From Chloroflexota bacterium (lineage in GTDB: Bacteria; Chloroflexota; Dehalococcoidia; JABGRK01): 64,000 nucleotides of DNA. The notes under the pieces were generated by a model. That model ran no database searches. It worked only from the letters and a program-made list of their open reading frames with translations, and had not been told where the DNA came from. The position numbers and the translations under genes were made by a program. Below are positions 20,133 to 25,797 of the stretch, one piece after another; positions within the stretch are counted from its first letter, which is position 1; each line of letters begins with the position of its first letter. Location of the stretch: NCBI GenBank assembly GCA_018648325.1, contig JABGRK010000011.1, positions 85,578 to 149,577 on the forward strand, written 5' to 3'.

Positions 20133-20158
20133 ACGTATAAAATGATGTGTATAGAAAG

Positions 20159-21379
20159 ATGGAAAAAATGAAAGTACCACGATGCAAGGGTACAAAAGAT
20201 CTGATGCCATTGGACATGGCTCTTTTCCGGCGTATCGAAAATGTATTTACCACCTCATGTGTTAAATGGGGGTATAAGGAAGTAAGAACTCCAACCCTGG
20301 AATACCTGCACCTTTTCACCTCTGCAGGAACACTTACGCCGGAAATGCTGGGTAGGGTTTATTCCTTTCTGGATTGGGATGGCTGGAGCGGGGAGAGAGT
20401 AGTGCTCAGGCCCGATGGAACCATACCGATCGCCCGTATGTATGCGGAAACCATGAGTGAGAGCGGTCTGGCAAAGCTTTTTTATGTAGAAAATCTGTTT
20501 GCCTTTGATAGCACGGGCCATGAGTCCCGAGAGCGCTGGGAGTGCGGCGTGGAGCTTATTGGCGATACAGGCATCAGTGGTGATGTCGAACTTATTATGC
20601 TGGCGCTTGAGACACTGGCAAAACTTGGCATTAACGACGTTGAAGTTAGATTATCCCATGCCGGACTGATACGTGAGCTTTTGGACGAAGTAGGCTCTGC
20701 CGAACTGCTGCAAAAACTTATAGATGGTAAAAAAGACGCTATTAACGAACTCAAAAGCGTCAATACGGATCTGGCAAAAAAACTGTCTCTTATTTTCGGC
20801 GTCAATGGTAAAAACAAGGGCTACCTTGATAATCTGCGTGCCATTTTCCCCACTCTGAGTGCTACATTTGATGACTTATCCAATGTGACTCAACTTCTGG
20901 AAGCAGCCGGATTAAATTACAATCTGCAACTTGCTTCTGGTTTGGGTTTTGAATACTACACCGGCACTATCTTCCAGCTCTACTACAAAGGGAAAAAACT
21001 GGGTGGTGGCGGCAGATATGATGAACTGATACCGCTGGTTGGTGACGGACCGACTCCTGCTTCTGGATTTGCGCTGTACGTTGGACATATTATGCAGATA
21101 GTACAGCCAATCAAGCCTGCGGATGCTTCTGCTAAGAGGATTCTTATAAAACCATCCGGTACAGATGCCGATAGTATGAAAGGCTGCTACGGATTGGCCG
21201 ACAGCTTGCGGAAAAAAGATTACATAGTTGAGCTTGAGCTCTGCTGCCGGGATGAGGATGGCTATAGCTGGATCATAACTGGTGATAAAGAATTTAGTCT
21301 AACAGAGAACACCACTGGTAAGCAGCAAAAAGGCTTATCGGGTGCCCAGGTTATCAAGTGTCTGGAGGCGTCCCTTTGA
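20159..21379 (+). CDS. hisZ: ATP phosphoribosyltransferase regulatory subunit
   Basis: A HisRS-like paralogue of 406 residues that lacks the anticodon-binding domain and activates short-form HisG. Class II core features are VPRCKGTKDLMP at the N-terminus, motif 2-like VLRPDGTIPIAR, and ASGLGFEYYTGTIF and GGGGRYDELI near the C-terminal half. The ATG at 20159 is preferred to an upstream GTG at 20147. It is the first gene of the his operon and overlaps hisG by four bases. Its presence implies that HisG needs it, yet this hisG is unusually long. Confidence 0.9.
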   Translation: MEKMKVPRCKGTKDLMPLDMALFRRIENVFTTSCVKWGYKEVRTPTLEYLHLFTSAGTLTPEMLGRVYSFLDWDGWSGERVVLRPDGTIPIARMYAETMSESGLAKLFYVENLFAFDSTGHESRERWECGVELIGDTGISGDVELIMLALETLAKLGINDVEVRLSHAGLIRELLDEVGSAELLQKLIDGKKDAINELKSVNTDLAKKLSLIFGVNGKNKGYLDNLRAIFPTLSATFDDLSNVTQLLEAAGLNYNLQLASGLGFEYYTGTIFQLYYKGKKLGGGGRYDELIPLVGDGPTPASGFALYVGHIMQIVQPIKPADASAKRILIKPSGTDADSMKGCYGLADSLRKKDYIVELELCCRDEDGYSWIITGDKEFSLTENTTGKQQKGLSGAQVIKCLEASL

Positions 21380-22761
21380 AGCTAAAACTGGCATTGCCCA
21401 AGGGATGGCTACAGGGATCTACATCAGAACTGCTGGAGCGCATTGGTTTCGCGTTTGATGAGTATCATGAAAAGTCGCGCTCATACCGGCCACTGTCTAA
21501 AAAGTTCCCCGATCTGTTCATAAAGGTGTTTCACGAGAAGGACATTGCTATTCAGGTGGCAATGGGCAACTATGATCTGGGAATTTGCGGATTTGACTGG
21601 GTTGACGAACTGCTCTCCAAATACCCCAGCGACGCTGTGCTCAAACTTCGTAATCTGGGATACGGCCACGGCAACATTTATGTTGCTACCAGCAAATTAT
21701 CAAACATAACGCTGGACGACCTGAAGTCAGGCGACGATGTTGTACGTATTGTTACCCAATACCCCAATCTGGCAGAGGCATATGCTCTAAAGCAACGTTT
21801 CAGGCGCTTTAAGGTTCTTCCAGTGTTGGGTGCAGCCGAGGTTTATCCGCCGGAAAACGCTGAGCTTGCTATCCTGGCTGAAACGTCAGAGGACGAGCTG
21901 CGTGAGCGTGGTATGGTTCTGCTGGATACCATAGGCATGACCGATGCATTTCTGATTGCCAACAGAGACAGTCTGGAAAAGAAAAACCTTAGCGCTCTAC
22001 TTACACCGTTACTGGATGCCACCCTTAAAGAAATAAACTTGTCTGTGCCTTCTAAAAAAGCGGTCAGTACGACATGGGGTCCGCTGGAACCCGGAACAGT
22101 ACGTCTGGCCTTGCCGGATGGGCACCAGCAGAAACATACCATTGGCTTTCTTGAAAGAGCTGGTATCAGGATGAATGGATATCAGCAGGGTAATCCTGTC
22201 TGCCGACCTGACATAGGTATAGATGGCGTTGTGGTAAAGGTCGTCAGGCCGCAGGACATGCCACTGCAGGTGGCCAACGACAACTTCGATCTAGCCATTA
22301 CCGGTCAGGATTGGTTGCGTGATCATCTGGTTCAGTTTCCGTCCAGTCCGGTTCATCAGCTTCTGGACATGAGTTATGGTAAAATACGGCTTCTGGCAGT
22401 GGTACACAACGATGTACCTGTAAATAGTCTTGAAGAGTTGAAAGAAATGATGGTATCGGGTAAGCTGACCAGGATAAGGGTTGCGTCCGAGTATATTAAC
22501 ATAGCCGATAAGTATGCCAGAGATAATCATCTGGCTCCATATAGCATAGTACCAACCTGGGGTGCCAGCGAATCGTTCTTGCCGGAGGATGCAGATCTGT
22601 TAATCGAAAATGCAGAAACTGGTGCTACGTTGTTAAAAAACAACCTTAAAATAATAGATCAGTTGATGGAAACTACACCATGTGTTATCGGTAACAAAAA
22701 CAACGTTGCCAAACGAGATAAAATTGCACAGGTCATGGAAATACTAAAAAAAGGCCTTTGA
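21376..22761 (+). CDS. hisG: ATP phosphoribosyltransferase, tandem two-domain form
   Basis: Catalyses the first step of histidine synthesis, joining ATP and PRPP. The TTG at 21376 is chosen because GGAGG lies eight bases before it and it overlaps the hisZ stop (TTGA). The protein is 461 residues, twice the short-form length, and consists of two HisG domains in tandem. Domain 1 (about 1-225) begins LALPKG (5-10) and has CGFDW near 72. Domain 2 (about 242-461) begins LALPDG (244-249) and has ITGQDW. The PRPP-loop motif is canonical only in domain 2 (ETGATL, 414-419); domain 1 reads ETSEDEL at the same place. The LPKG lysine is kept only in domain 1. The two halves may share one function or one may be structural. 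Confidence 0.9.
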   Translation: MKLKLALPKGWLQGSTSELLERIGFAFDEYHEKSRSYRPLSKKFPDLFIKVFHEKDIAIQVAMGNYDLGICGFDWVDELLSKYPSDAVLKLRNLGYGHGNIYVATSKLSNITLDDLKSGDDVVRIVTQYPNLAEAYALKQRFRRFKVLPVLGAAEVYPPENAELAILAETSEDELRERGMVLLDTIGMTDAFLIANRDSLEKKNLSALLTPLLDATLKEINLSVPSKKAVSTTWGPLEPGTVRLALPDGHQQKHTIGFLERAGIRMNGYQQGNPVCRPDIGIDGVVVKVVRPQDMPLQVANDNFDLAITGQDWLRDHLVQFPSSPVHQLLDMSYGKIRLLAVVHNDVPVNSLEELKEMMVSGKLTRIRVASEYINIADKYARDNHLAPYSIVPTWGASESFLPEDADLLIENAETGATLLKNNLKIIDQLMETTPCVIGNKNNVAKRDKIAQVMEILKKGL

Positions 22762-22765
22762 TTTA

Positions 22766-24112
22766 TTGAAGATAATAACTGACAAGCAAAAAGCCAGAGA
22801 GTTTCTTACTCGATCTAACGTTGAGTCCGAGGCTACACCTGCGCTTAAAGCGGGCATCAAGCAGATGTTCGGCAAAGAAATGAGTCTTGAGCAGACCGTG
22901 CAGCATATTATTAACGATGTGCGTAAAGACGGGGACAAGGCGCTGTTTGAACTCACAGCAAAAATAGACGGCGTCCATTTGTCTGGCCTTGAAGTAAGTA
23001 AAGATGAAATAGCCGCTGCCTACGATGTTATCGATGATGAACTACTTGGTGCTCTGGAACTGGCTGCTCAGAGAATCAGGGCATTTCACGAAGTACAGAA
23101 ACGTAGTTCCCGTACCGATTTCATGGATGACGAGTTGGGGCAACTGGTCTTTCCGCTGGGGCGGGTGGGATTATATGCGCCGGGTGGCAAAGCCAGTTAT
23201 CCTTCTACAGTGTTGATGACCGCCATACCCGCTAAAGTAGCCGAGGTCAGCGAAATAGTGGTAACTACCCCGCCTGCTAAAGACGGCTCGATTATACCTG
23301 CCATTCTGGTAGCTGCTGACATTGCCGGCGTGGATAAAATTTACAAGGTTGGTGGAGCACAGGCAGTCGCTGCTATGGCCTATGGCACCAAGTCTATACC
23401 TAAGGTAGATAAAATATGTGGCCCGGGCAATATATTCGTTACGCTGGCAAAAAAAATGGTCTATGGATCTGTGGATATTGATGGCATTCAGGGGCCTACC
23501 GAGACCATCGTCTTGGCCGATGACAGTGCTAATCCTCTTTACTGTGCCCTCGATTTGCTGGCGCAGGCTGAGCATGATGAAATGGCCTCAGCAATAATGA
23601 TAACCGATTCTAAAACGCTTGCGGATAACGTTGTCATACAAATCAACAGGCAACTTGAAACGCTTGAGCGCAGCCGGATAGCAAAAGAGGCTATGAAGCG
23701 TAATGGCGCTATCATTGTTGTGGATAAAATAGATGATGCTGTTGAACTAGCCAATACCTATGCGCCGGAGCACCTGTGCCTGACTGTTGCTGATCCTGAA
23801 TTCTGCATGAGTAAAATCACAAACTCCGGTGGTATATTCATAGGTGAGAGCTCACCTGAGGGTGTGGGGGATTATACGGCCGGACCAAGTCATGTTATGC
23901 CCACCAGCGGCACTGCTCGCTGGAGCTCACCCTTAAGTGTAGATGATTTTCTGCGCACATCAAACGTAATTGCTATCCAAGAACACTCCTTAAGAGAGAT
24001 CGGTCATGCGGCAGCCATAATTGCGCGCGCCGAGGGACTTACCGCCCATGCAAAGGCGGTCGAGGCCAGACTTCAGGGCCTGGAGGATAAAAGTGAGCAA
24101 GGACAAGGATAA
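22766..24112 (+). CDS. hisD: Histidinol dehydrogenase
   Basis: A 448-residue zinc enzyme that oxidises histidinol to histidine in two steps. Recognisable blocks are GRVGLYAPGGKA, VGGAQAVAAMAYGT, DKICGPGNIFV, GPTETIVLAD, and LLAQAEHDE with Gln and His of the active site, plus TYAPEHLCL and VGDYTAGPSHVMPTSG. The start is TTG at 22766, five bases after hisG. Length and motifs are typical. Confidence 0.96.
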   Translation: MKIITDKQKAREFLTRSNVESEATPALKAGIKQMFGKEMSLEQTVQHIINDVRKDGDKALFELTAKIDGVHLSGLEVSKDEIAAAYDVIDDELLGALELAAQRIRAFHEVQKRSSRTDFMDDELGQLVFPLGRVGLYAPGGKASYPSTVLMTAIPAKVAEVSEIVVTTPPAKDGSIIPAILVAADIAGVDKIYKVGGAQAVAAMAYGTKSIPKVDKICGPGNIFVTLAKKMVYGSVDIDGIQGPTETIVLADDSANPLYCALDLLAQAEHDEMASAIMITDSKTLADNVVIQINRQLETLERSRIAKEAMKRNGAIIVVDKIDDAVELANTYAPEHLCLTVADPEFCMSKITNSGGIFIGESSPEGVGDYTAGPSHVMPTSGTARWSSPLSVDDFLRTSNVIAIQEHSLREIGHAAAIIARAEGLTAHAKAVEARLQGLEDKSEQGQG

Positions 24113-25211
24113 GAATCTCACCCGGAAACTGGTACGGCAGCATATCATTGATCTTGATCCGTACAAGCCCATCGTGCCTCTTGATATGATCTCGGAGCTC
24201 ATTGGTATTCCCGTCAGTAAACTGATTAAGCTGGATGGTAACGAAAACCCGTATGGCTGCTCCCCTAGAGTCAATGTTGCCTTAACCAACTGCAATGCTT
24301 ATCATATCTATCCCGACTCGTCGTATCAGACGATGTGCAAGCTGCTGGAGAGATATGTAGGTGTTGATAGTGAGAACATTATTGTAGGCAGCGGTAGCGA
24401 CGAGCTTATTGATCTTATTCTGCGCCTTTATTTGGAACCGGACGATGAAGTGATTAATTGCGGTCCCTCGTTCGGCATGTATCCATACTGCACTGCAGTC
24501 AACAACGGTAAGCTGGTTGAGGTCCCGCGTGATGCATTGTACAACGTTGATATTGCTGCGGTGAAAGAAGCTGTTAGTAAACGTACTAAAGTGATCTTCA
24601 TTGCCTCACCCAACAATCCTACTGGCAATGTAACCCCTGAGAAAGATATATTGGAACTACTCAAGATGGGAATCGTTGTAGTTGTTGATGAGGCCTACTT
24701 TGAATTCTACGGTATATCCATGGCACGTTTAGTGGAAAAACATGAAAATCTGATTGCGTTGCGTACTTTCAGCAAGTGGGCCGGGCTTGCCGGACTTCGG
24801 GTTGGTTATGGTATATTCCACAGTAACGTTATCGAGTATTTAAACAAGATCAAACCGCCGTACAACGTGAACGTGGCAGCTCAGATTGCTGTGGTGGAAT
24901 CGCTGGCCGATATCGATTATCTGATGGGTACGGTTAATGCTATTAAGAAGGAACAGGCCCGGCTAATTGAAAAGCTTAACGAGCAGGGTATATTGAAACC
25001 CATTCCATCGGTGGCAAATTTCGTGCTATGTAATGCTCCTGAGGGGAAAGCAAGAGAGATAAAGGAACTGCTGGAGAGTGCAGGCATTTTCGTGCGATAC
25101 TTTGATACCCTGCAACTGAAAGATATGATTCGCATCAGCGTTGGCAAACCGGAGCATACCGATGCTTTGATTGAAGCACTGCACCGGATAGGAGGAGCGA
25201 GCAATGACTAA
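24093..25211 (+). CDS. hisC: Histidinol-phosphate aminotransferase
   Basis: A 372-residue fold-type I PLP enzyme. The GTG at 24093 is chosen because GGAGG precedes it; a longer reading frame starts at 24021 but lies inside hisD. Features are KLDGNENPYGCSP near the N-terminus, NNPTGN, DEAYFEF with the PLP-binding Asp and Tyr, the Schiff-base Lys in LRTFSKWAGLAGLRVGY and the phosphate-binding Arg in MIRISVG. It overlaps hisD by 20 bases and hisB by 8 bases. Confidence 0.95.
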   Translation: MSKDKDKNLTRKLVRQHIIDLDPYKPIVPLDMISELIGIPVSKLIKLDGNENPYGCSPRVNVALTNCNAYHIYPDSSYQTMCKLLERYVGVDSENIIVGSGSDELIDLILRLYLEPDDEVINCGPSFGMYPYCTAVNNGKLVEVPRDALYNVDIAAVKEAVSKRTKVIFIASPNNPTGNVTPEKDILELLKMGIVVVVDEAYFEFYGISMARLVEKHENLIALRTFSKWAGLAGLRVGYGIFHSNVIEYLNKIKPPYNVNVAAQIAVVESLADIDYLMGTVNAIKKEQARLIEKLNEQGILKPIPSVANFVLCNAPEGKAREIKELLESAGIFVRYFDTLQLKDMIRISVGKPEHTDALIEALHRIGGASND

Positions 25212-25797
25212 AAGAACGGCGGTGGTTACAAGGGAGACCAAAGAGGTCAAGCTCAGCGTTAGCCTGAATATCGATGGAAAAGGCAAGGGCGAGATCAATA
25301 CCGGAGTCGGCATGCTCGATCATTTGCTGCTGCAGATAAGCCGCCATGGTTTAATTGACATAACAATCTCGGCAGAAGGTGATTTGCATGTCGATGAGCA
25401 TCATACTGCCGAGGATGTGGCCATTGCTCTTGGTCAGGCGTTTGATAAGGCGCTGGGGGAGAGAAGAGGCATCAGAAGAATGGCCAATGCCGTTGTGCCT
25501 ATGGATGAATCACTGGCAATGGTTGCTCTGGATATCAGCGGCAGGGGATATGCCGTAGTTGAGGCTGCTTTCAGTGGTAGCAAAATAGGCGAATTGCCTG
25601 CCGATATTATTAAGCACATGCTGGAATCCTTTGCATCCGCAGCCAAGATTAATCTGCATGCTATCGTCCTTGCCGGTCAAGACGACCACCACAAGGCAGA
25701 GGCGCTTTTCAAGGCACTTGCCCGTGCTCTGGATGAGGCCACGCAGATAGACACACGAATCAAAGATGATCTGCCCAGCACAAAAGGTATGATCTAA
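25204..25797 (+). CDS. hisB: Imidazoleglycerol-phosphate dehydratase
   Basis: A 197-residue dehydratase of the monofunctional type. Both metal-binding motifs are present: DEHHTAED near residue 63 and DDHHKAEA near 161. GGAGGAG precedes the ATG at 25204. It makes imidazoleacetol phosphate, the substrate of HisC. The phosphatase domain found fused to HisB in enteric bacteria is absent, and a HAD gene follows immediately. Confidence 0.96.
   Translation: MTKRTAVVTRETKEVKLSVSLNIDGKGKGEINTGVGMLDHLLLQISRHGLIDITISAEGDLHVDEHHTAEDVAIALGQAFDKALGERRGIRRMANAVVPMDESLAMVALDISGRGYAVVEAAFSGSKIGELPADIIKHMLESFASAAKINLHAIVLAGQDDHHKAEALFKALARALDEATQIDTRIKDDLPSTKGMI

Follow-up and report, generated by a model that had tools for sequence, protein, structure and literature searches.

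A tandem HisG from Dehalococcoidia predicted to form a covalent pseudo-dimer with a single composite active site

Genomic context of the hisG gene

The window analyzed here, a stretch of 64,000 nucleotides of DNA from a Chloroflexota bacterium of the class Dehalococcoidia, contains an open reading frame (positions 21376 to 22761, + strand) encoding a protein of 461 residues with two matches to the Pfam HisG family (PF01634). The TTG start codon shares bases with the stop codon of the upstream gene (TTGA) and is preceded, with a 7-base spacer, by GGAGG (21364 to 21368, + strand), which reads as a probable ribosome-binding site. The upstream gene (20147 to 21379, + strand), already noticed in the initial annotation of the locus, is hisZ, which encodes the histidyl-tRNA-synthetase-like regulatory subunit. 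It matched TIGR00443 with 204 bits, a score under the curated cut-off of 271.65, and Pfam detected the synthetase-like core (PF13393) alone, without the tRNA-binding C-terminal domain, as expected for HisZ. The true hisS is a separate locus elsewhere in the genome (469 bits). Downstream of hisG, the + strand carries hisD (22766 to 24112; TIGR00069, 526 bits), a probable hisC encoding an aminotransferase (24021 to 25211; PF00155), and hisB encoding imidazoleglycerol-phosphate dehydratase (25204 to 25797; PF00475), giving the gene order hisZ, tandem hisG, hisD, probable hisC, and hisB. A gene for a HAD-family hydrolase (PF00702; 25799 to 26560, + strand) lies right behind hisB and is a candidate for the missing histidinol-phosphate phosphatase.

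Genes of the HisA/F type are located elsewhere in the genome, away from the hisZ-hisG-hisD cluster, and their presence together with that of hisD and hisB indicates that the histidine pathway is in use. The tandem gene is the only hisG copy of the 2.0-Mb genome. Since this sole copy lies inside the his operon, its product would catalyze the formation of PR-ATP from ATP and PRPP, and it is almost certainly the ATP phosphoribosyltransferase of this organism.

Domain organization

PF01634 matched each half of the protein separately, with 85.7 bits for the N-half (residues 3 to 222; 21382 to 22041, + strand) and 112.5 bits for the C-half (residues 238 to 461; 22087 to 22758, + strand), the cut-off being 25.5. 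TIGR00070 applied to each half alone gave 117.3 and 117.0 bits (cut-off of 75.75). The two halves align with each other over their full length with 29% identity (E = 1e-29) and are joined by a linker (residues 223 to 237; 22042 to 22086, + strand), which is the stretch of lowest pLDDT in the structural model. The Pfam result consisted of PF01634 twice and nothing else, a C-terminal regulatory domain (ACT-like, HisG_C) being absent from it.

These results bear out the initial annotation, in which the gene had been described as two tandem HisG domains. The motifs that it listed, LALPKG and CGFDW in the N-half and LALPDG and ITGQDW in the C-half, were found as described, and ETGATL was indeed confined to the C-half, as was the more general PRPP-loop pattern [DE]xxx[TS]GxT. 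The C-half is a HisG domain and not an unrelated periplasmic-binding fold, which the annotation had named as a finding that would overturn its proposal.

Distribution of the tandem form

A total of 190 distinct full-length tandem sequences were read. Conservation of the fusion in all of them indicates that the reading frame does not result from a sequence error, the second possibility against which the annotation had cautioned. In a survey of 294 genomes from the same class, 265 gave a match, and a hand count of the E-value list by match strength assigned ca. 180 of these to the full-length tandem form and ca. 85 to single HisGs. In a survey of 400 Chloroflexota genomes, tandem proteins (537 bits or more) were detected only in the class of the window, the best match beyond this class reaching 132 bits and covering the C-half only. 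A second collection gave matches with the alignment as the query and none with the lone window protein. The named carriers in that collection were Dehalococcoidia, Dehalococcoidales, or unclassified Chloroflexota, and one was labelled Dehalococcoides mccartyi; the tandem form apparently extends to Dehalococcoides. Linkage to hisZ was constant, this gene being found upstream of hisG and on the same strand in all 118 tandem loci whose upstream sequence was long enough for the check, mostly overlapping hisG or almost touching it.

One family (f34) comprises genomes with the tandem form together with genomes with a single HisG (G034 and G076 versus G060, G106, and G128), a mixture which suggests that one type has taken the place of the other. 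In two draft genomes belonging to different families, the N- and C-halves are encoded by adjacent overlapping genes flanked by hisZ and hisD. At one of these loci (L073, 1829 to 3194), a GTG start precedes the TAG stop, and at the other (L077, 2980 to 4451) the genes overlap by TGATG. Such split genes, if real, would show the halves acting as a heterodimer; they are possibly frame errors of the draft genomes. The split halves branch inconsistently between the N and C subtrees, and their families contain no other informative genome.

Origin of the two halves

A phylogenetic tree was built from 46 N-halves, 46 C-halves, and 37 single HisGs. The N-halves formed one clade (support of 100/100), as did the C-halves (100/98), and the two clades were sisters to the exclusion of every single HisG (100/95). 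The stem of the N clade was longer than that of the C clade (1.03 and 0.49 changes per column, respectively). The topology and the stem lengths indicate that both halves derive from a single duplication, which was followed by faster change in the N-half. The divergence of the halves suggested in the initial annotation is recovered both in these unequal stems and in the complementary loss of conserved residues (see below). Comparison of the window protein with a relative sharing 80% protein identity gave dN/dS ratios of ca. 0.09 and 0.07 for the two halves (about 0.13/1.48 and 0.13/1.91), values for which dS is near saturation, indicating that purifying selection acts on both halves.

Complementary loss of conserved residues

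Both halves were aligned with the sequences of solved HisGs in order to apply the numbering of the Psychrobacter arcticus short-form enzyme (HisGS), and this numbering agrees with the published positions of C115, R56/K57, and D179. Loss was scored at columns conserved in the 37 single HisGs. Residues R73, G92, D94, D176, T180, G181, and T183 plus one hydrophobic position were lost in the N-half alone, and R56 plus one hydrophobic position were lost in the C-half alone. In P. arcticus HisGS, R56 crosses the dimer interface toward the PRPP of the partner subunit, where it reaches the pyrophosphate, and bound HisZ makes up in part for the loss of this arginine (PMC9734150). The arginine contacting the γ-phosphate of ATP is R73 (PMC10795190). 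According to this alignment, the losses of the N-half are those of the PRPP loop and of the ATP γ-phosphate arginine. Complementary loss is the pattern expected if only one site is used, since an active half needs the residues acting in cis and an inactive half needs only the residue acting in trans. The assignment of R32, R73, and D94 to cis or trans roles is a putative one drawn from the loss pattern.

In the C-half, which is predicted to be catalytic from its conserved substrate residues, the R73 equivalent is R291 in the motif R291-P-Q-D-M (22246 to 22260, + strand), an arginine in 189 of the 190 sequences, the remaining one having X at this position. The PRPP-binding loop of the same half, E411-NAETGAT418 (22606 to 22629, + strand), is equally conserved (T415 in 189/190 and G416 in 190/190). 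In the N-half, the R73 position is occupied by arginine in only 39 of the 190 sequences, and the PRPP pocket is lost, the loop being degenerate across the 190 homologues. The remnant of the loop in the window protein (residues 167 to 175; 21874 to 21900, + strand) is acidic and has lost the equivalents of D176, T180, G181, and T183; homologues differ greatly in the length and the sequence of this former loop.

The equivalent of the R56 loop is the N-half motif R35-S-Y37-R38 (21478 to 21489, + strand), with R or K at position 35 in 178 of the 190 sequences. The 12 exceptions contain G, S, or H at this position, and all 12 retain R38. We do not claim that position 35 or 38 is always basic, although this holds for 190 of 190 sequences, since ca. 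one exception would be expected by chance. Natural variants of the trans-acting arginine occur within the tandem family, with Lys found in one lineage of closed genomes that is probably Dehalococcoides and Gly in a subclade of Dehalococcoidales (loci L103, L104, and L105 and loci L143, L151, L158, L160, L184, and L187). The occurrence of G, S, or H in the Dehalococcoidales subclade and of K in the Dehalococcoides-like sequences indicates that the trans-acting arginine is not indispensable. The C-half contains a conserved arginine, R277 (179/190), three columns past the R56 column, which might be a shifted functional equivalent of R56.

The initial annotation had placed the lysine of the LPKG motif in the first half only. 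This holds for the window protein but not as a signature of the family, since Lys is found in 108 of 141 N-halves. The C-half counterpart of this lysine is Asp in 140 of 141 sequences, followed by Gly-His, and the resulting motif, D248-G249-H250 (22117 to 22125, + strand; D in 189/190, G in 141/141, and H in 190/190), replaces the KGR motif of canonical short HisGs, including those of known structure. The arginine of KGR is also missing from most single Chloroflexota HisGs, which mostly have K-G-S or K-G-E. Among the aligned sequences, the telling residues are the trans-acting arginine, R73, and the PRPP loop rather than the LPKG lysine, and their pattern implies one working site rather than two.

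Covariation between the halves and predicted structure

Coupling was sought between the R35 loop of the N-half and the PRPP loop of the C-half. Variable columns formed 65,976 pairs in the whole protein, and the top one by normalized mutual information (1.0, the next pair reaching 0.77) associated Y37, two residues past the R56 equivalent, with T418 in the PRPP loop. Tyr at the former position occurred with Thr at the latter in 177 sequences and Leu with Ser in 13, so that all 190 were concordant. Reconstruction on the best tree, from which both columns were omitted, gave four changes (three to four in bootstraps), only one of which was forced by well-supported branches, and a sign test is consequently without power. 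In single HisGs, the corresponding columns are not strictly coupled. Mean-field direct-coupling analysis of the 190 sequences (effective number of 139) had a weak positive control, and a test for pseudo-twofold symmetry gave no signal usable at such depth; the Y37-T418 pair was taken from simple mutual information and not from this analysis. The covariation provides a strong but not conclusive indication that the R35 loop of the N-half is linked to the PRPP loop of the C-half.

AlphaFold2 models were obtained for the window protein (mean pLDDT of 92.9 and pTM of 0.89) and for a second member 38% identical to it (94.6 and 0.90, respectively). In the model, the order of secondary-structure elements of each half is that of HisG. 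A Foldseek search of the PDB returned HisG chains on top, each spanning approximately one half, and such one-half-at-a-time matches are silent on dimer arrangement. The high pTM obtained for two large domains implies that, in the predicted structure, the halves pack at a definite relative placement within the chain. This placement would have a HisG-dimer-like orientation.

Proposed mechanism and alternatives

The tandem domains, the single duplication, the complementary residue loss, the covariation, and the hisZ linkage are read from the sequences, and from them we infer a pseudo-dimer geometry, a single active site, a stoichiometry, and a mode of regulation. An ancestral hisG would have been duplicated and its copies fused, the halves then dividing the labor of one active site. 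The C-half would bind PRPP and ATP via the PRPP loop (E411 to T418), R291, D312, and E399. The N-half, devoid of PRPP binding, would provide the other face of the dimer, chiefly the R35-x-Y37 loop, which is expected to reach the leaving pyrophosphate at the neighboring site, as in the known HisG homodimer. One chain would thereby be equivalent to one HisG dimer with a single working site in place of two. HisZ, encoded just upstream, presumably activates the tandem HisG and confers inhibition by histidine, and the complex is expected to consist of a HisZ tetramer bearing two chains of the tandem HisG. We consider it quite likely that the tandem HisG is such a pseudo-dimer, covalently joined and sharing a single composite active site. 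The built-in dimer suggested in the initial annotation is well supported by the complementary residue loss and the Y37-T418 covariation, its geometry being a predicted one.

By a different arrangement, the C-halves of two chains would pair as ordinary two-site HisG dimers, leaving to the N-half no more than an accessory role in docking HisZ or in stabilizing the complex. Retention of nearly all substrate residues in the C-half and the conservation of R277 near the R56 column are compatible with such pairing. However, an R56 equivalent would then be absent at both sites, yet the unused N-half retains it in most members. The strongest covariation of the protein joins the R35 loop of the N-half with the PRPP loop of the C-half, and the high pTM points to packing of the N-half against the C-half inside one chain. 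We regard this arrangement as unlikely. It appears more doubtful still that the N-half has become a regulatory sensor of a ligand, such as histidine, AMP, or another nucleotide, adding regulation beyond that exerted by HisZ. The N-half is under purifying selection and has invariant residues of its own, and its pocket, in a fold that binds nucleotides, is altered rather than deleted. Nonetheless, the known histidine-sensing partner is encoded at every locus of the hisZ survey, and the variability of the former PRPP loop is unlike that of a conserved new binding site. A sensor role of the N-half would be compatible with its role in a composite site. Catalysis by both halves, with two working sites per chain, is very improbable: each half scores above the HisG equivalog cut-off, but the PRPP loop of the N-half is missing in all members, with acidic residues taking its place in the window protein, and the R73 position has mostly lost its arginine. 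Finally, a sequencing or assembly artefact or a recent accidental duplication has a negligible probability, since the 190 distinct homologues include closed genomes and the halves are just 29% identical.

Returning to the composite-site pseudo-dimer, the tandem HisG would probably add a third class to the known architectures of ATP phosphoribosyltransferase, namely, an obligate catalytic-pseudocatalytic fusion that is fixed across a large clade of Dehalococcoidia, has exactly one composite site per HisG pair, and associates with HisZ in a 2:4 complex instead of the 4:4 octamer.

Significance and comparison with known systems

HisG serves as a model system for studying how a dimer interface mediates allosteric activation. 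In a homodimer, each mutation strikes both sites and both roles together. The tandem HisG would split the two roles into independently mutable halves of one chain, making the idea of a trans-acting arginine, half-of-sites behavior, and the path of activation by HisZ directly testable. It also offers a case of a core biosynthetic enzyme that underwent duplication and fusion and lost one of its sites, and it revises the view of how histidine is made by Dehalococcoidia, a group including organohalide respirers of use in bioremediation. A literature search, thin on subscription journals, revealed no earlier description of a tandem HisG, which is a variant of a known enzyme, apparently undescribed, that merits structural and kinetic study.

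The closest known system is the short-form HisGS-HisZ enzyme of P. arcticus, Acinetobacter baumannii, Thermotoga maritima, and Lactococcus lactis. Each tandem half likewise has the two-lobed HisG fold without a C-terminal regulatory domain, hisZ adjoins the tandem hisG as well, both in the window and at the other loci surveyed, and the PRPP loop, the ATP arginine, and the trans-acting arginine are all identifiable, the last in the N-half only. Short-form HisGS consists of one catalytic domain of ca. 214 residues (PMC8305728), whereas the tandem protein has two HisG domains in a chain of 461 residues, one of which lacks a substrate site. It further differs from the short form in the presence of DGH in place of KGR in the predicted catalytic half and in the single working site predicted per dimer.

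Long-form HisGL, found in E. coli, Campylobacter jejuni, and Mycobacterium, shares the PF01634 catalytic family with the tandem protein, and the Foldseek matches included C. jejuni HisGL chains. Unlike in the long form, the extra length of the tandem protein is accounted for by a second HisG domain, HisZ is present, and the regulatory domain was not detected by Pfam. Fused pseudo-dimers with one composite site are known from other enzymes, as in the pepsin-like proteases compared to retroviral protease and in the C1-C2 domains of mammalian adenylyl cyclase. The folds and the chemistry of these enzymes differ from those of HisG, but the principle would be common, with duplication of a homodimer subunit, fusion of the copies, and division of labor at one site.
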